Position numbers and translations under genes: made by a program
Notes under the pieces: model-generated
Told to the model about the DNA's origin: nothing
The model's input: only the letters and a program-made list of their open reading frames with translations
The model's database searches: none
From: Gammaproteobacteria bacterium
GTDB taxonomy: Bacteria > Pseudomonadota > Gammaproteobacteria > UBA5861
Direction of reading: 5' to 3'
NCBI GenBank assembly: GCA_022360445.1
Contig: JAKSCV010000070.1
Location: 1 to 43,382 of the forward strand
Length of the DNA stretch: 43,382 bases
In this document: positions 28,969 through 36,019 of the stretch, in pieces
How positions within the stretch are numbered: the first letter of the stretch is position 1
How the letters are laid out: each line of letters begins with the position of its first letter

Positions 28969-29802
28969 TTATTCGAGGGCAAAAATCGCCTTGCCTAAGA
29001 CCTTACCATCATGAATGCCGGCCTGACGCTCGGTAACAGAAATAATCAGGTTGCTGCCATTCGCATCGAACTGCTGAGGCAAGTTAATAGGGATTAATCC
29101 CGTTGCTTCTGCCTGAGGTGGATACATAACAAACCATGTTTTACCAATTCGCTGCCGGTTACGATTTTTCTCAACATGTGCTTCCATATACGCATTAACA
29201 GACCGTCCACCATCGCGCTTTAGTTGCACACTCAGTGCTGGCTGGCCGTTTGTGTCTTTGGCAAAAGCAACCTCAGAAATACTGATGTTGGCATCAAGCT
29301 CACCTTGGCGCAAAATGAGTGGGAGTGTGACTGAAACCTGCATTTCAACAGATACTGTTGACTGTGTGGGTGCGCGTTTTGTGTTGATTTCCTGGTTTTT
29401 ATCTTCGATATCGACGGGTTTGATGGTTAAAGCCGCCATGTATTCACCTTTTGCCAAGTCAGAGGGTTTGCGACTGTTAACACGGACAATTTGTGATTCT
29501 CCCGGTTTTAATACCACCTTACGGGGAGAAACTCGGAAAAGACGGGTCGTTTTTAATTGTTCTTGATTCGGGTTTGTTATTTTTTCGTATCTGCCGGTTT
29601 CATTGATATAAACCGGTTCTATTTTTACTCTGAATTCCCCGGTTTTGTCACCCGTATTTAAAAGTGTTAATTTTTGACTTCGTAAATTACCTTCAAGTAC
29701 GACTCTTTGGGGAGTTACTGTTACATTAGCGGCCGCCTTTAAATAAATAGGGAAAAGGCTTATTAAAACGACTGAAAACAAACAAAGTCCTTTTTTCATC
29801 AT
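28969..29802 (-). CDS. PapD-like periplasmic pilus chaperone
   Basis: 277-residue exported protein with two immunoglobulin-like domains, predicted to cap fibre subunits and deliver them to the usher. Signal peptide MMKKGLCLFSVVLISLFPIYLKAAA. The N-domain has VTVTPQRVVLEGNLRSQKLTLLNTGD (about residues 26-51), FRVSPRKVVLKPGESQIVRV (about 89-108) and EYMAALTIKPV. The G1-like edge strand is VSVEMQVSVTLPLILRQGEL (about 148-167). The C-domain follows. It diverges from FimC/PapD and is longer, resembling chaperones found with alternative chaperone-usher loci. A second ATG three bases on (29799) is better spaced from AGGA. It is the last gene of the six-gene operon. Confidence 0.85.
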   Translation of the reverse strand: MMKKGLCLFSVVLISLFPIYLKAAANVTVTPQRVVLEGNLRSQKLTLLNTGDKTGEFRVKIEPVYINETGRYEKITNPNQEQLKTTRLFRVSPRKVVLKPGESQIVRVNSRKPSDLAKGEYMAALTIKPVDIEDKNQEINTKRAPTQSTVSVEMQVSVTLPLILRQGELDANISISEVAFAKDTNGQPALSVQLKRDGGRSVNAYMEAHVEKNRNRQRIGKTWFVMYPPQAEATGLIPINLPQQFDANGSNLIISVTERQAGIHDGKVLGKAIFALE

Positions 29803-29824
29803 AAATTCCTTTTAATGAAAACTT

Positions 29825-30316
29825 CTACGGAATAACAAATTCAACATTAACCGTAATGCTTGTTGAGTAACTACAAGGGTAAGCGTCTGGCGAATAATTA
29901 CTTAAATCGAGTGTGCCGCCTAAATAAATATAACAACTGGCGGCTGTGCGGCCTAAATCGCAATCTGAGTCATCTGAATAAAGATGAACTTCACTCACGG
30001 TTAAATTCGGTTTTGATGGGCAAGTCATCGGATAAGTGCCGTTAGGGTACGTCACATCAATCCGGTAACTGGGATCTGCATTTATTTTCACTTTACCAGC
30101 CAGAGGGTTTAAAACAGTCGTCAATGGCCCTGTGAATGTTTTGATGATGTCCGGCGTTCCCGGACCGCCCTGCAGTGAAATTTTCCCCGGCTGGGTTGGG
30201 TCAACGTAGACATCCCCAAACCGAATAGGTTTCAGTACCTCCGTTGCAGCTGCGTAAGTTGCCAAAGGGGTACAGTAAAGAAAAGCAAGAAAAAGTCCCT
30301 TTTTTCTAAAAGTCAT
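29825..30316 (-). CDS. Minor fibre subunit, DUF4402-like
   Basis: 163-residue exported protein. The signal peptide is MTFRKKGLFLAFLYCTPLATYAAA. The mature part ends CDLGRTAASCYIYLGGTLDL, then PCSYSTSITVNVEFVIP. This copies the layout of the major subunit's end (CTIGSTGNCQIYIGGQLTV, then CDYSGTVNMTVAYQ). Both mature proteins carry four cysteines in matching order, suggesting two conserved disulphides. The Gly-Pro-rich segment LQGGPGTPDIIKTFTGP (about residues 49-65) is unlike the major subunit. ATG at 30316 is chosen over a TTG three bases earlier. It may be a tip or adaptor subunit. It is separated from the major subunit gene by a strong hairpin. Confidence 0.72.
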   Translation of the reverse strand: MTFRKKGLFLAFLYCTPLATYAAATEVLKPIRFGDVYVDPTQPGKISLQGGPGTPDIIKTFTGPLTTVLNPLAGKVKINADPSYRIDVTYPNGTYPMTCPSKPNLTVSEVHLYSDDSDCDLGRTAASCYIYLGGTLDLSNYSPDAYPCSYSTSITVNVEFVIP

Positions 30317-30335
30317 CAATCCTTTTCTCGATCTC

Positions 30336-30372
30336 CTGGATTGAGAGGGGTAGAGCCCCCTCCTTAATCCAG
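30336..30372 (-). ncRNA. Stable intergenic mRNA hairpin between major and minor subunit genes
   Basis: CTGGATT (30336-30342) pairs with AATCCAG (30366-30372), and GAGGGG (30345-30350) pairs with CCCCTC (30357-30362). This gives a 13-pair, GC-rich two-part stem with a 6-base loop, starting 6 bases after the major subunit stop codon. No T-run follows, and the ribosome site of the next gene is just beyond. It is a candidate 3'-protecting or attenuating structure that raises the ratio of major to minor subunit, by analogy with hairpins downstream of major pilin genes. It is a cis element, not a separate RNA. Confidence 0.6.
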
Positions 30373-30378
30373 ATTTTA

Positions 30379-31008
30379 TTATTGATAAGCAACGGTCATG
30401 TTGACAGTACCGGAATAGTCGCAGGCTTCCTGGTTTGCGCCAACGGTTAACTGGCCGCCAATGTAAATTTGACAGTTACCTGTAGAGCCAATGGTGCAGC
30501 CAAGCTCCCAATCAGACGCTGTTGCACCAGATGCAACAGTTGCGGGCGCAGTAATGGCTGTATATTCCTTGTCGTCATACTTGGCTAGCGTCATGGTTGA
30601 CAGGGTATTAGTGGCACAGACCAGGTTCGTGGTTGCGGCATCGAATGTCAGTGACGCACGGATTCCATTGATACCACTGACAGTAATCAAACCAGCAGAC
30701 TCACCACTGATGGTTGCTTTAGTACTGCTGAGTACGGCACTGGCATCAGAACCGGTATTATCGCCAGCAGTTGTTGCTGCTGGATAGGTTGTACTACCGT
30801 TACCGGCTTTAATATCAGCCGTAAAGCCTGCGGGATCTGCTGCGATGGATCCAAACCCGAGGTCAGTGACTTTGGTTGCCGTAGCGGCGACTTGAATGGT
30901 TGATAGAACATCCATGCTGAAATCTTCGGCATGAACAGCACCGCTGGCAACCAACAAGGCAGCAGGCAATACTTTAAAGGGTGTATAAAGCTGTTTTTTG
31001 CGAATCAT
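30379..31008 (-). CDS. Major fibre subunit, DUF4402-like pilin
   Basis: 209-residue exported protein with signal peptide ending GAVHA near residue 27. The mature part is rich in Ala, Thr, Ser and Gly and poor in Lys/Arg, typical of polymerising surface subunits. It has alternating beta-strand patterns. The C-terminal signature GNCQIYIGGQLTVGANQEACDYSGTVNMTVAYQ matches the DUF4402 ending (a GG-x-L strand, then YSG...V-x-V-x-Y). It has four cysteines, shared in order with the next gene's product. The composition and the hairpin after the gene point to a highly expressed structural protein. Start at 31008 has both AGGA and GGAG upstream. A 148-base gap from the lipoprotein gene leaves room for an internal promoter. 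Confidence 0.78.
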   Translation of the reverse strand: MIRKKQLYTPFKVLPAALLVASGAVHAEDFSMDVLSTIQVAATATKVTDLGFGSIAADPAGFTADIKAGNGSTTYPAATTAGDNTGSDASAVLSSTKATISGESAGLITVSGINGIRASLTFDAATTNLVCATNTLSTMTLAKYDDKEYTAITAPATVASGATASDWELGCTIGSTGNCQIYIGGQLTVGANQEACDYSGTVNMTVAYQ

Positions 31009-31156
31009 CTTCCTAATACTCCATTAAGTTAAGTTCGTTCTCGGGGCTTGTTTGTTGCCCTCGAACTGTTTAGCGACATGGCTAATTATTTATTTAACCT
31101 TTTTTTGCATTTTTTTATGAACCCACTTAATGTTCATGAAATTTCACAGAAAAAGC

Positions 31157-32185
31157 TTAATAAGTCAGCGCAAAATCACCTTTTGATACCGGTGACAAAT
31201 GTGGTTCCCTATGAACTGCAATAGAGAAGTTTGGAAATACATCTGTCACTAATGCATCGGCAATTTCAATGACTTGGTTTAGCTCTTTTCCATTTCCCAT
31301 AGTTGATATGTGTCGATTCTTTAAAATTTTTAGATTTTCGCCGGCAGTAATACGCGTTTCCATACCAGCATTTAAATAAATTTTTGATCCTTCTGTATTA
31401 ATGACGCGCGCCATTAAAGGCAGGCAAGCCAAGTTAGCATCAATATCATTCGCTTGTTGGGATAAGCTTGTATGAATGATTTTTCCATAATCGCTGTTTT
31501 CAATGCTGTTTATAAAAACATCACGTTCTTTAAATATGACGGAACCTTTTGTTTGATGAAAGTAGTGAAACTGATTCAACTTTGCGCCGGATGCGCCATC
31601 GTAAATTGCAATTTGAGTGCTGAGTCCCCTGCGTTTGGATGTAAAAGGCTTTGCCAGTAACTTTTTAGCTTTTGTTGACCAACCATCTGTAGATAGCCCA
31701 TGATTTTCTATGTGTGCTTTGTCAATAATGTGTGCGGTAATCACAAACTGGGCGTCTTTTTCTCGTGCAAGCTGCTTGATTTGCCCCTCAATGTGCTCAC
31801 TGGCCATACCCAGTGTATTGATCGTTAGCGAAGCAAGTTGGTAATCATCGGATGTCACCAAGTGGTAGCGATCTCTTTGCTCAAGGTACTGCTTGAGGCG
31901 AGTTGAGAGTATCTCTTCCAGCCCGTAGAGCTCAGTTGCCTGGTCGGAAGATAAGTCTTTATAGCGCAAGAGCGCCACGGTCTTTTTGTAATGTGGGGCG
32001 GGTTCTTTATTTGGCCCGCAGAAAATTTGCTGTAGTGGGGGCTCTATGGTCAAGTCCGTTTGTGATGTTTCCACCGTTTCTGAAGGTGGCGACACAATTT
32101 TCATACCACACCCTGCTAAAAAAATTGAGGTCATCATCAATAAGGAAAGGGTCTGCCTACAGCGTGTGCTTTTTATCTTCTGCAT
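31157..32185 (-). CDS. FlgT-like outer-membrane lipoprotein of the fibre operon
   Basis: 342-residue lipoprotein. The lipobox FLAGC places the lipidated Cys at residue 26; the next residues, GM, give no inner-membrane retention signal. The middle part (KKTVALLRYKDLSSDQATELYGLEEILSTRLKQYLEQRD) has the alpha/beta pattern of the CsgG/TolB-N/FlgT-middle fold. The C-terminus (MARVINTEGSKIYLNAGMETRITAGENLKILK...EIADALVTDVFPNFSIAV) matches the small beta domain of FlgT, the H-ring protein of sodium-driven flagella. It is not next to flagellar genes but inside the pilus operon, 15 bases after the glycine-zipper gene. I infer a periplasmic or outer-membrane ring or anchor around the usher. The fold call is moderate. 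Confidence 0.65.
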   Translation of the reverse strand: MQKIKSTRCRQTLSLLMMTSIFLAGCGMKIVSPPSETVETSQTDLTIEPPLQQIFCGPNKEPAPHYKKTVALLRYKDLSSDQATELYGLEEILSTRLKQYLEQRDRYHLVTSDDYQLASLTINTLGMASEHIEGQIKQLAREKDAQFVITAHIIDKAHIENHGLSTDGWSTKAKKLLAKPFTSKRRGLSTQIAIYDGASGAKLNQFHYFHQTKGSVIFKERDVFINSIENSDYGKIIHTSLSQQANDIDANLACLPLMARVINTEGSKIYLNAGMETRITAGENLKILKNRHISTMGNGKELNQVIEIADALVTDVFPNFSIAVHREPHLSPVSKGDFALTY

Positions 32186-32200
32186 GGAAGCTTCACTGGT

Positions 32201-32842
32201 TTATTGGTCAATGCGGATTAACCGCAGCCCATTGGGGGTGATCGTTTTTTTGGATGTTTGCTCTGCTTTAGGAGGCGGAGCGTTTGATGACGTTCTCTCT
32301 TGTGGCCGAACGGTTCCGTTTTCACCGGTATTCCGGTTTAAGCGGTTACGTGAAGAACGAGTTACGTAGTAAGTGGGCTGATAGGCAATATGCGCGGCGA
32401 GTTGTCCACGTGAGTAACGAGGTGCTTGAGTGCCGGAACGTGAGCGGGCAGGAGAGGCCGAAAAATAAGCGGTTCTGAATCCCGATTGTTGAGAAAAGTA
32501 ACCGGGGATGGTGTTACGGCTGAAATACACGAGCTGTGCGTTATCCGTCTGGTGCTTTGCATGCGCTTTAAGGCTGGGCGGGCGATCCTGTTCTGTATCG
32601 CGTGTTAAAAAATCAGACAATTTGGCAATGAGATAGCCGCCGACGCTTCCAACAACCGGCCCAATGGGGTGGGCCGTCAGAGCCCCGCCAAGAATTGATC
32701 CGGTAATAGTGGCGATATTGCTATCATCAGCCAGGTACTCATTGGCCATGTTTGTGGTGCCATATTCAGCCTCTCCTGAGGCAATAGCACGGCCTGTGCT
32801 TAGCGTTATCGTTATGATCAGCGCGATTCCAATCCTTTTCAT
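32201..32842 (-). CDS. Exported glycine-zipper protein of unknown function
   Basis: 213 residues; family not recognised. Signal peptide MKRIGIALIITITLSTGRAIA. Residues about 44-70 (ATITGSILGGALTAHPIGPVVGSVGGYLIAKL) form a glycine-zipper hydrophobic stretch like those of small outer-membrane proteins such as SlyB. The C-terminal 120 residues are basic and rich in Ser, Arg, Gln, Tyr and Asn (SRSGTQAPRYSRGQLAAHIAYQPTYYVTRSSRNRLNRN), probably disordered and possibly peptidoglycan- or LPS-contacting. AGGAG precedes the ATG. It is tightly placed between the usher (15 bases) and lipoprotein (15 bases) genes, so a role in fibre assembly is likely but untested. Confidence 0.7.
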   Translation of the reverse strand: MKRIGIALIITITLSTGRAIASGEAEYGTTNMANEYLADDSNIATITGSILGGALTAHPIGPVVGSVGGYLIAKLSDFLTRDTEQDRPPSLKAHAKHQTDNAQLVYFSRNTIPGYFSQQSGFRTAYFSASPARSRSGTQAPRYSRGQLAAHIAYQPTYYVTRSSRNRLNRNTGENGTVRPQERTSSNAPPPKAEQTSKKTITPNGLRLIRIDQ

Positions 32843-32857
32843 CGTTATGGCTCCTGT

Positions 32858-35800
32858 TTAATCCGTTTGGCGAGCATTCACCATGCAACCCTGGCCGATT
32901 TGTTTTAGTTCGCGGCAAAAACCAGCGGCTTCTTGCTGACTCATATCTTCAACAATCACGCGATGATAAACCCCTTTTTGAGCACCGAGGTCCGCTTTGG
33001 TGATGTTCAGTTTCCGGCCTCCGAGTAATCCGGAAAACGTCATCCACTGGGTTGCTTTGATGTAAGACTCGGCGCTTTTTTCGGTGCGAAAAGCCGCCAG
33101 CTGAACGTAGTACCGCCCTGACTTTTGCTTCAGCGCCGTCTGGTTATTGGCTTTTAAAGCGGTCGACTGAGCAATAGGTTTTAAAGAGGATGCGCGTATG
33201 GGTTTCACCTTTGGGGTGCTTTCAGCTGGCGTGGAAGGTCGTGTCACCTTAAGCGAATCACTCAATCGCAATGTTTTGATCTGCTCTTGGCGCTTATTGG
33301 AAGATGCCACGTTCGTCGCTGGCGGTGATGACTGGGTGGAAACGGAAACAATATCCAGGCCGTTATGCACGCCACCGCGTTGACCAATCGTAACACTGGG
33401 TGGCAGCCGCAGAGGTTTGAGTGGCGCATTGCTGTCGATCTCGACGTGATATTGGCCGCTTGGAATGTGTTCAAATAAATAGTAGCCGTCGTAAGCGGTT
33501 TTTTCTGTGGCGACAATTTGGCCAGTCTGGGTATTAACCAAGTTCAATTTCACATGACTGAGCTCTCGAACAGTACCCTTGTCATTAATGTAAAATGTGC
33601 CGTCAATCTCGCCGGTTTTAATGAATGGCAAATAGAGTTCTGTGACTACGCCCGGGCGTGGTATGACTGAGTAACCGGCACTTGCCGGCGAAAGGGAAAT
33701 GTCCTCCCAGGTGTTAGGCATGACTTGGATATCCGTACGCAGGTCCGCTGTCATGTACTCAATAAAGGCAATACCATCGGCATTGGATTTAGCCCGGTGA
33801 TTGCCCTGCACGGCGATCACTTCTGCGTCTTTTATGGGTTCATCATCGTTATCCCACTTGCCGTTGGCATTTTTGTCCCAAAACATATAAACACGTACCG
33901 TGCCGGAATGACCTCGGCTACGTTTGTTAAAAGCCAGTTTGCCTTCGCTGTTTTCGCTTAAATCGGTTGTGAGAAAAATGAACCCTCTGTAACGTTCTTC
34001 AGAGTCGTAACTCAGGGTTGGGGTGAAGACGAGTTGTTTGATATGCCAATTGAAACCAGAAACATATTTCGTTAAGTCGTCATTACCATTTTGCCCCAGT
34101 GCATGATCGACGCGGAAGTTAGCGCTCAGGTTTTTCCGCATCTTAATCGTCGTGTTTAAATAGCCACTTGTCAGCTCGTTTTCCGGCTCTATCCCATACC
34201 GAAGGCCTGTCCTGAAGCGGAACGGCCCCCACCGTGAACCGAGCCTTAAACTGCCGGTTGTCAGTTCTTCATCACGGCCATCACTGTGTTCTGTGAGTTG
34301 ATATCGTAAAGAGTGATTCCATGACAGTTTACCCAAGTGCCCAGAAAGGGAGTTGCTGGCGATGAGGTCTTCGGATTCATCACTTTTTTGTCTGCTGATG
34401 CTTGTGGCTGTGCTGACTTTGCCAATAGGCCCTAATAATGACAGCTCACTTTTTCCTGTAATCATCCGGTCTTTGTCTTCTTCATCCAGAATTAATAAGC
34501 CGGTATTTTTGATATGACTGGCTCGAATACCAAACTTTCCCAACGGGGCAGAGAGTGAAACCGAATAGCCGTTTTCGCCCATAGAATCACGGCTGGCGCC
34601 TACGGCCCCGAATAGGCTGGAGAATGAAAAAATCAGATCGAGTGATTGATAGTCTACGCGCTCTTCTTCAATCGTGGACAGCTGTAATCCGCCTCGCAGG
34701 CTAAGATTCCGAGTCAAGCCATAAGTGAACTCGCTGACGACTCGGGGGTCGTTGGGGCTATCGGTCGCTTTCTGTTCATCGGTTTCGATCAGGGTTTTGC
34801 CCTGTTCAGTGATGGAGGCGCTATAAGCAAAAACACCCGGTTCGCTCATACCCGAGCCAATGCGGTAGGTTTTGGTTTCCTGGCGTTCCTGACCATTCGG
34901 GCCATAGAACACGAGTTTAATGGTGTTTTTGCCGAAGGTAAGCGGGACATCTTTAAATAGATAGCGACCCGATGGAGCATCTCGTTCGACACCGATTAAT
35001 ATGTTATTCCGGTAGAGCTCGACTTCCCAGTCATTAAGTAAATCGCCTTCAAAGTCAACCGTATCAAAAATAGTGTTTCTAAACAGATCCCGGTTGGTGA
35101 ATTTTATGCCGCGTTCAACCGGGCGGGTTAGAAAGGGCAGATACGGAGGGGCTGTGTCACCGATGGAAAATTGTGTTAAGCCAAGGGGGCCGAAAAGCTC
35201 TCCTTCGGCATCTGAGCGCCAAAAATTCAACCGGGCGTTAGCGATTTCGTTTTCATTCGTGCCGTTAAGGAATAATAATGAGTCCATGTAAGCAATTTCG
35301 CCGGATGAGATTAATGAGTACGTCACGTTGATGTCAGCGTCATCATCTTCATGTTCGCGGTAGCTGTTGTAATTGAGCGTAAATTTGAGGTTGGGGGAAG
35401 AAAGAAATTGATAAGGTGTTTCTTTGAGAGGTAGTTTTGCCGGCTCGGTTTCACTCAATGTTGTCACAGATCGGTTGTAACGGGCCAGGCGCTTTTGGAA
35501 GGGCAGCTCCTCCCTCGGGTGAGCCTCAATCGTTAATGTCGAAAACTGGAGTGAAAGGTCCACGGGAAACCAAATCGACAGTAAGCGGTTATCTACTAAA
35601 AGGTCATTGCCCTGAACAATAACCTGGTCGGGTTTATAGTTGCTCTCCTGGCCGGCAATACGAACGGTGTTAATTGCCGTATCAAGAAAAAAAGTACGGG
35701 ATTCGTGAATAAACCAGCCTGTGACGGTGGCTTGATTATTTTCAAGGGTGATATCCAGAGGGAACTCAAAGGCATCGGCAATGTCGTACAAGGAAAGATA

Positions 35801-36019
35801 CACGTGATCGCCCTGGCCATAGCCGACAAGATTGTTCGTTAGCACCGTCTTATCGACCGTTAAGTCGAGAATGAGTAAATCATCTTCAGAGATAATTTCA
35901 GCTGACGCTAAGCTGGTACAAGCAAGACAAAATATCACAAGGCTAGACAACAGCTGTCGTATCGTTACACTTTGTTTGCTTTGAGCACAGACAGACTTGG
36001 CTAGTGTTTTTTTGATCAT
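32858..36019 (-). CDS. Usher-like outer-membrane protein with C-terminal SPOR domain
   Basis: About 1053 residues from the ATG at 36019, which gives a normal signal peptide (LLSSLVIFCLACTSLASA, cut near residue 40). A TTG 72 bases further up has a better ribosome site but an odd lead-in. Order: periplasmic beta-rich N-domain (about 41-200), long region of alternating strands typical of an outer-membrane barrel (about 210-700: SLRLGSRWGPFRFRTGLRYG and similar), SdrD-like Ca-binding domain with VYMFWDKNANGKWDNDDEP (about 708-727), carboxypeptidase-regulatory-like domain (about 810-870: YDGYYLFEHIPSGQYHVEI), Ser/Pro/Thr/Lys linker (about 890-965) and SPOR domain (about 967-1048: YYVQLAAFRTEKSAESY). 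SPOR domains bind glycan strands stripped of stem peptides. I infer a fibre-translocating usher tethered to the cell wall; no classical PapC signature is claimed. Confidence 0.75.
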   Translation of the reverse strand: MIKKTLAKSVCAQSKQSVTIRQLLSSLVIFCLACTSLASAEIISEDDLLILDLTVDKTVLTNNLVGYGQGDHVYLSLYDIADAFEFPLDITLENNQATVTGWFIHESRTFFLDTAINTVRIAGQESNYKPDQVIVQGNDLLVDNRLLSIWFPVDLSLQFSTLTIEAHPREELPFQKRLARYNRSVTTLSETEPAKLPLKETPYQFLSSPNLKFTLNYNSYREHEDDDADINVTYSLISSGEIAYMDSLLFLNGTNENEIANARLNFWRSDAEGELFGPLGLTQFSIGDTAPPYLPFLTRPVERGIKFTNRDLFRNTIFDTVDFEGDLLNDWEVELYRNNILIGVERDAPSGRYLFKDVPLTFGKNTIKLVFYGPNGQERQETKTYRIGSGMSEPGVFAYSASITEQGKTLIETDEQKATDSPNDPRVVSEFTYGLTRNLSLRGGLQLSTIEEERVDYQSLDLIFSFSSLFGAVGASRDSMGENGYSVSLSAPLGKFGIRASHIKNTGLLILDEEDKDRMITGKSELSLLGPIGKVSTATSISRQKSDESEDLIASNSLSGHLGKLSWNHSLRYQLTEHSDGRDEELTTGSLRLGSRWGPFRFRTGLRYGIEPENELTSGYLNTTIKMRKNLSANFRVDHALGQNGNDDLTKYVSGFNWHIKQLVFTPTLSYDSEERYRGFIFLTTDLSENSEGKLAFNKRSRGHSGTVRVYMFWDKNANGKWDNDDEPIKDAEVIAVQGNHRAKSNADGIAFIEYMTADLRTDIQVMPNTWEDISLSPASAGYSVIPRPGVVTELYLPFIKTGEIDGTFYINDKGTVRELSHVKLNLVNTQTGQIVATEKTAYDGYYLFEHIPSGQYHVEIDSNAPLKPLRLPPSVTIGQRGGVHNGLDIVSVSTQSSPPATNVASSNKRQEQIKTLRLSDSLKVTRPSTPAESTPKVKPIRASSLKPIAQSTALKANNQTALKQKSGRYYVQLAAFRTEKSAESYIKATQWMTFSGLLGGRKLNITKADLGAQKGVYHRVIVEDMSQQEAAGFCRELKQIGQGCMVNARQTD

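Follow-up and report, generated by a model that had tools for sequence, protein, structure and literature searches.

The operon and its products

The stretch of DNA considered here (the window) is contig JAKSCV010000070.1 of assembly GCA_022360445.1, 43,382 nucleotides from a Gammaproteobacteria bacterium (UBA5861). Positions 28969 to 36019 of the window hold an operon that is predicted to encode a chaperone-usher fibre system in which the usher ends in a SPOR domain. Six open reading frames (ORFs), all on the minus strand (36019-28969), were recovered at the coordinates given in a first-pass annotation of this DNA, and the six same-strand genes of the types proposed there are borne out by the ORF coordinates and by Pfam. 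They are transcribed in the order usher, glycine-zipper protein, FlgT-like lipoprotein, DUF4402, DUF4402 and chaperone, with intergenic gaps of 15, 15, 148, about 60 and 22 bases.

32858..36019, minus strand: usher-fold outer-membrane protein with C-terminal SPOR domain, 1053 amino acids (ORF, Pfam, AlphaFold2, Foldseek, VIA)
32201..32842, minus strand: exported glycine-zipper protein, 213 amino acids (ORF; weak match to the PdsO N-terminus; orthologues in 11/11 subclade members)
31157..32185, minus strand: lipoprotein (LAGC lipobox) with FlgT middle and C-terminal domains, 342 amino acids (Pfam, profile against 3w1e)
30379..31008, minus strand: DUF4402 subunit A, pilin-like, 209 amino acids (Pfam, model, pilin matches)
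29825..30316, minus strand: DUF4402 subunit B, about 163 amino acids (Pfam, alignment)
28969..29802, minus strand: PapD-type periplasmic chaperone, 277 amino acids (weak Pfam match, profiles, orthologues above the PapD_N cut-off, RefSeq names of relatives)

The usher start is the ATG at 36019, which lies just ahead of the signal peptide; a longer TTG start (36091) is not needed. Promoter and terminator scans at the operon gave nothing above chance, so the limits of the operon are drawn from gene order and spacing. Identical six-gene content and order are present in a sister genome (G001; UBA5861, a Halothiobacillaceae assembly); the two ushers share about 90% identity. An apparent frame break in this sister usher was rejected, as the in-frame stop adjoins an assembly gap (Ns). 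Genome searches at the family and order levels found one other genome only.

Usher, subunits and chaperone

The usher was modelled with AlphaFold2 using 68 sequences, with a mean predicted local distance difference test score (pLDDT) of 86.5. From the N-terminus onward, the model shows an alpha/beta domain, a long barrel into which a plug is inserted, C-terminal beta-sandwiches, a linker and a terminal beta-alpha-beta-beta-alpha-beta domain, which are located as follows.

35516..35878, minus strand: usher N-terminal domain, alpha/beta, residues 48-168 (model secondary structure; Pfam on relatives)
33950..35398, minus strand: translocation barrel, residues 208-690 (model, VIA)
34862-35062, minus strand: internal plug, residues about 320-386 (model, VIA)
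33338..33907, minus strand: C-terminal beta-sandwiches, residues about 705-894, at the position of the usher C-terminal domains CTD1/CTD2, with SdrD_B/CarboxypepD_reg matches (Pfam, model, VIA)
33122..33328, minus strand: disordered linker of about 70 residues, residues 898-966, pLDDT below 50 (model)
32870..33112, minus strand: SPOR domain with the glycan-contact glutamine, residues 970-1050 (Pfam, model fold, alignment, residue counts)

A Foldseek search of the model against the PDB returned FimD or PapC in all of the first 17 rows, with FimD as the best match (E 5e-31). Using VIA-align, Z scores of 20.8 to FimD and 20.7 to PapC were obtained over residues 190-892 approximately, and 15 usher entries scored 18-21 versus 16 for the best unrelated barrel. 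The N-terminal domain lies outside the VIA-aligned span; several relatives match Cu_amine_oxidN1 there and none matches PapC_N. In addition, the window usher matches SdrD_B above the Pfam cut-off (1.6e-8). A single-sequence PDB search with the usher gave no match. Judged by its predicted structure, the 1053-residue protein is an usher. The barrel-like exported protein with a terminal SPOR domain that had been proposed is thereby confirmed, through the usher barrel, plug and C-terminal domains on the one hand (model, Foldseek, VIA) and the Pfam SPOR match on the other.

Six usher clades have been described (PMC3559732). Neither the classical models PF00577, PapC_N and PapC_C nor the alpha-clade models TcfC and CooC_C were matched at the Pfam cut-off by the window usher or by the relatives tested. 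As controls, Escherichia coli FimD and HtrE match PF00577, PapC_N and PapC_C (761 bits for FimD), and EcpC of the alpha clade matches both TcfC and CooC_C. A PF00577 search of the window genome gave no match, with a positive E. coli control, and hhalign of the usher profile against FimD and EcpC yielded short, weak matches only, that to EcpC not being significant. By sequence, the usher is a lineage outside the described usher models. The first-pass annotation had placed the system outside the textbook clades, and this stands insofar as the classical and alpha-clade usher models of Pfam, which the E. coli controls match, do not recognise the window usher. Like the classical FimD/PapC systems, this one has a plugged usher barrel with C-terminal domains in the periplasm, a PapD-type chaperone, Ig-like subunits and clustered genes; the window usher differs in falling below the PF00577 cut-off and lacking PapC_N and PapC_C, and its system adds a SPOR domain, a FlgT-like lipoprotein and a glycine-zipper protein. 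EcpC is also outside PF00577 and shares a C-terminal carboxypeptidase-regulatory-like match, whereas the window usher lacks TcfC and CooC_C, and the Ecp operon is without SPOR, glycine-zipper or FlgT partners.

Both subunits match DUF4402 above the Pfam cut-off (4e-12 and 4e-6). A sequence profile of DUF4402 found designed and Ig-like proteins only and no pilins, and structure comparison was therefore needed to assess pilin likeness. The DUF4402 model has a modest pLDDT of 75. Chaperone-usher subunits make up the first 18 rows of its Foldseek search against the PDB and nearly all of the top 50 rows with VIA (Z 5.6-7.4), the named best matches being Caf1, CfaB, CsuA/B, FimG and the PapG pilin domain. 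On this predicted fold, the DUF4402 proteins resemble chaperone-usher pilins. No mention of DUF4402 was found in the open-access literature searched. For the last gene, the first profile matches are CupB2, PapD and FimC (E 6e-4 to FimC by hhalign), and orthologues in G010 and G142 score above the PapD_N cut-off; on these comparisons, its product is a PapD-type chaperone. The two DUF4402-like subunits and the PapD-like chaperone of the earlier annotation are thus supported by Pfam, pilin structure matches, chaperone profiles and the orthologues over the PapD_N cut-off. That annotation had also made its reading depend on a barrel and immunoglobulin-fold subunits in predicted structures and on a gene order conserved elsewhere; an usher barrel is predicted, the subunit model resembles chaperone-usher pilins, and the gene content is conserved in many other genera.

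At least 538 relatives of the usher were found in one pattern scan, and an usher match is present in 13 of the 369 genomes that were sampled from across the class. The loci compared here are the best 80 matches of a longer list and the tree holds 88 ushers, a sample that leans toward the window. Nearly all ushers in the 80 loci adjoin DUF4402 and chaperone genes, unless a contig end intervenes, and therefore the minimal system consists of subunits, chaperone and usher. This grouping occurs in alpha-, beta- and gammaproteobacteria and also outside these classes, in genomes as well as on plasmids. In RefSeq, the relatives are labelled 'carboxypeptidase regulatory-like domain-containing protein', 'SdrD B-like domain-containing protein' or hypothetical. 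A plain subunit-chaperone-usher cassette is found on Polaromonas plasmids near IS6-family transposases (L006, L011), which suggests horizontal spread. A scan of viral contigs with the usher found no relatives, and a PHROGs search gave a single weak match of unassigned function. In Marinobacter and UBA5122, a Wzy_C/TPR membrane protein resembling O-antigen ligases adjoins the fibre genes (L041 12115-14091, L105 12865-14811); O-antigen-ligase-like enzymes can glycosylate pilins.

The SPOR domain and the accessory proteins

The denuded glycan to which the SPOR domains studied so far bind is enriched at the septum, and a glutamine has been reported as their highly conserved glycan contact (PMC6895207). 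The SPOR domain of the window usher matches PF05036 with an E value of 2e-6 and 28.5 bits (cut-off 21), and the strands and helices of its beta-alpha-beta-beta-alpha-beta fold occupy residues 970-1049 of the AlphaFold2 model. Nine other ushers tested carry a SPOR domain above the Pfam cut-off: L029 (two copies), L010, L040, L041, L105, L048, L102, L056 and L062. In the tree of 88 ushers, the SPOR-ended proteins form one main clade (Shimodaira-Hasegawa-like approximate likelihood ratio test, SH-aLRT, 99) with SPOR in 31 of 34 rows, where labels in the Pseudoalteromonas/Vibrio branch were assigned by a custom hidden Markov model or a tail of at least 75 residues, Pfam recognising part of them only. 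Two further SPOR ushers, L056 (Pseudomonas tumuqii) and L062 (Marinobacter denitrificans), sit deep within a SPOR-less Halomonas/Massilia branch, and L010 is located elsewhere on the tree on a long branch. From these placements, SPOR is taken to have been gained separately in L056/L062 and in L010.

The contact glutamine is invariant across nine aligned SPOR domains of the window's subclade. On the window side of the SPOR clade, it is present in 10/14 fused domains (the remaining four, all desulfobacterial, have histidine), and an arginine is present in 13/14. In the window's subclade, both residues are retained despite an overall identity of about 20-27%. A Desulfobacterales usher (L039 5887-9936) ends in three SPOR domains with histidine replacing the contact glutamine. 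With FtsN, DamX and RlpA, the window domain shares the ribonucleoprotein-like fold, the glycan-contact glutamine and a flexible linker; it differs in being carried by an outer-membrane usher, at the end that lies in the periplasm, and not by an inner-membrane anchor or a lipoprotein enzyme. In L008, L048, L063, L066, L075, L094, L100, L102, L108, L112 and L113, loci in which the SPOR-like domain fused to the usher no longer has its glycan-contact residues, one to three separate SPOR proteins flank the usher.

The window lipoprotein matches FlgT_M with an E value of 7e-13 (49.4 bits versus a cut-off of 31.2), and the profile of its family matches the middle and C-terminal domains of the FlgT structure 3w1e (E 1.7e-28). 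FlgT_N was not matched in Pfam, while the flagellar FlgT of L096 has this domain. The glycine-zipper protein and the FlgT-like lipoprotein occur together in 11/11 ushers of one clade (SH-aLRT 98) inside the main SPOR clade and in 0/77 of the remaining rows of the tree, some of those loci being cut by contig ends. In three Marinobacter strains (L041, L042, L046), the two are fused into one protein. In G129, the usher (L043) runs off its contig, and another contig opens with SPOR, followed by the glycine-zipper gene, subunits, chaperone and FlgT; L043 was therefore rejected as a SPOR-less usher. A comparison of SPOR with the glycine-zipper protein over independent pairs on the tree contained too few changes to be informative. 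The 11/11 orthologues, the FlgT_M match and the 3w1e profile match uphold the glycine-zipper protein and FlgT-like lipoprotein proposed for this operon. The accompanying claim of three accessory envelope components stands in part: two separate proteins plus SPOR are present, but the SPOR domain is fused to the usher, and the glycine-zipper and FlgT-like proteins mark a subclade and not the whole family.

The Vibrio H ring is built from FlgT and FlgO, and flgT mutants shed their flagella easily (PMC6504787). The window lipoprotein resembles this FlgT in its middle and C-terminal domains and in its profile match to the solved structure. Unlike it, the window protein is a lipoprotein without the FlgT N-terminal domain and is encoded with an usher, and its type is also present in a genome without FlgH (G035). 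DUF4402 genes come after a FlgT-like lipoprotein gene in G080 (L165, 1-2657), an incomplete assembly in which an usher of this family was not detected. In Pseudoalteromonas, the usher region is followed by three genes for FlgO-family lipoproteins (PF17680); the observations on FlgO genes cover L063, L066, L087, L094, L096, L097, L100, L101, L108, L112, L113 and L114. L094 and L096 directly adjoin flagellar flgT and apparent flgP and chemotaxis genes, and in Paraglaciecola (L102), FlgO genes are located upstream of the subunits with no flagellar genes nearby.

Proposed assembly and alternative readings

The operon probably encodes a fibre of the chaperone-usher type, with a usher that would be anchored to denuded peptidoglycan and steadied by the FlgT-like outer-membrane lipoprotein as a brace. 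The PapD-like chaperone would hold the DUF4402 subunits in the periplasm, after which the chaperone-bound subunits would dock on the usher and be polymerised and secreted outward by donor-strand exchange. This exchange is established for chaperone-usher systems and is proposed here because of the usher and subunit folds and the gene content. Because the C-terminus of an usher lies on the periplasmic side, the SPOR domain would be correctly placed to bind the wall. On its flexible linker, it would bind peptide-stripped glycan strands, tethering the assembly platform to the wall and probably enriching it where cells divide or where amidases have otherwise processed the wall. Together, the glycine-zipper protein and the FlgT-like lipoprotein would form an outer-membrane-associated brace or collar at the usher, as suggested by their strict co-occurrence, the Marinobacter fusion and the fact that FlgT is known to anchor flagella in Vibrio. 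A fuller version, with close to an even chance of being right, is that these loci form an undescribed chaperone-usher branch with the usher as part of a trans-envelope machine: SPOR would fix the platform at peptidoglycan processed by amidases, placing fibres at division sites or new poles, a FlgT/glycine-zipper collar akin to flagellar H-ring parts would brace it at the outer membrane, and a marine sister branch would have arrived at the same result by shifting wall binding to separate SPOR lipoproteins.

Several results weigh against the tethered and braced fibre. The window usher scores 17.4 bits with PF00577 (E 0.0021), below the cut-off of 27.1, and the window chaperone matches PapD_N at 0.0038, also below its Pfam cut-off; the DUF4402 model gives structure matches of moderate strength (Foldseek E about 0.04, Z below 8). 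In the complete genome G035, neither a DUF4402 protein nor a PapD chaperone was detected. FlgT-like lipoproteins lie away from usher loci in G190, G329 and G117. Pfam SPOR was not matched in the subclade-2 ushers L075, L096 and L008, and in the Pseudoalteromonas/Vibrio branch (L010 excluded), the fused domain has the glutamine in 0/18 and the arginine in 1/18. Separate SPOR proteins in loci of this branch have the glutamine in 16/29 and the arginine in 15/29, and judging by these residues, a partner protein seems to have taken over wall binding from the usher. If binding to the wall is important for the system, loss in the fused domain together with retention in separate proteins is what would be expected.

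The strongest alternative is that SPOR is a general wall tether, which steadies the usher against pulling and has no role in septal or polar placement. The long, flexible linker agrees with this, and the pairing in subclade 2 of intact SPOR domains in separate lipoproteins with a degenerate fused one fits a tether as well as targeting. In addition, FlgT, a relative of the other accessory protein, anchors Vibrio flagella (PMC6504787). Force bearing without localisation would, however, be unusual, given that the SPOR domains studied bind septum-enriched denuded glycan (PMC6895207). This alternative is a serious possibility, at somewhat less than even chances.

It is unlikely that the usher, glycine-zipper and FlgT-like trio works independently as a secretion or envelope machine, with DUF4402 and chaperone as one of several cargoes. 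This idea draws on G035, where L029 (8786-15932) encodes an usher with two SPOR domains, a glycine-zipper protein and a FlgT-like lipoprotein in a genome where neither DUF4402 nor a PapD chaperone nor the flagellar L-ring gene was detected; there, the trio may serve another or a diverged substrate. The other ten subclade members, however, have DUF4402 and chaperone genes in the same locus or on a matching contig, and plain relatives consist of subunits, chaperone and usher only. A membrane GGDEF protein is encoded between the glycine-zipper and FlgT genes of G035.

That the FlgT-like lipoprotein is a flagellar part, in the operon by chance or for co-regulation, is very unlikely. The window genome does contain the L-ring gene FlgH and no further FlgT, and the fibre locus adjoins flagellar genes in L045 and in Pseudoalteromonas. 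G035, however, carries the lipoprotein and FlgH was not detected there, so it is not simply flagellar; moreover, the FlgT N-terminal domain is absent, Marinobacter has the lipoprotein and the glycine-zipper protein joined in a single chain, and within one usher clade the two are always found together. It is highly improbable that the SPOR fusion is a functionless remnant or a chance addition at the C-terminus: subclade 2 does include SPOR-like tails that have degenerated strongly, but the glutamine and arginine persist in the window's subclade at low overall identity, G035 has two copies of the domain and L039 three, and it was apparently gained separately in L056/L062 and L010.

In the open-access literature searched, no paper joins an usher with SPOR or FlgT in this sense. 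The ushers studied so far are not known to have a dedicated wall anchor. If the proposed tether and flagellar-type collar are real, pilus assembly can be spatially coupled to cell-wall turnover, and the system would show how an usher platform withstands pulling forces. A large set of likely pilus loci (at least 538 usher relatives in the one scan), which are now annotated as 'carboxypeptidase regulatory-like' and DUF4402, is brought into view, and DUF4402 gains a likely function.

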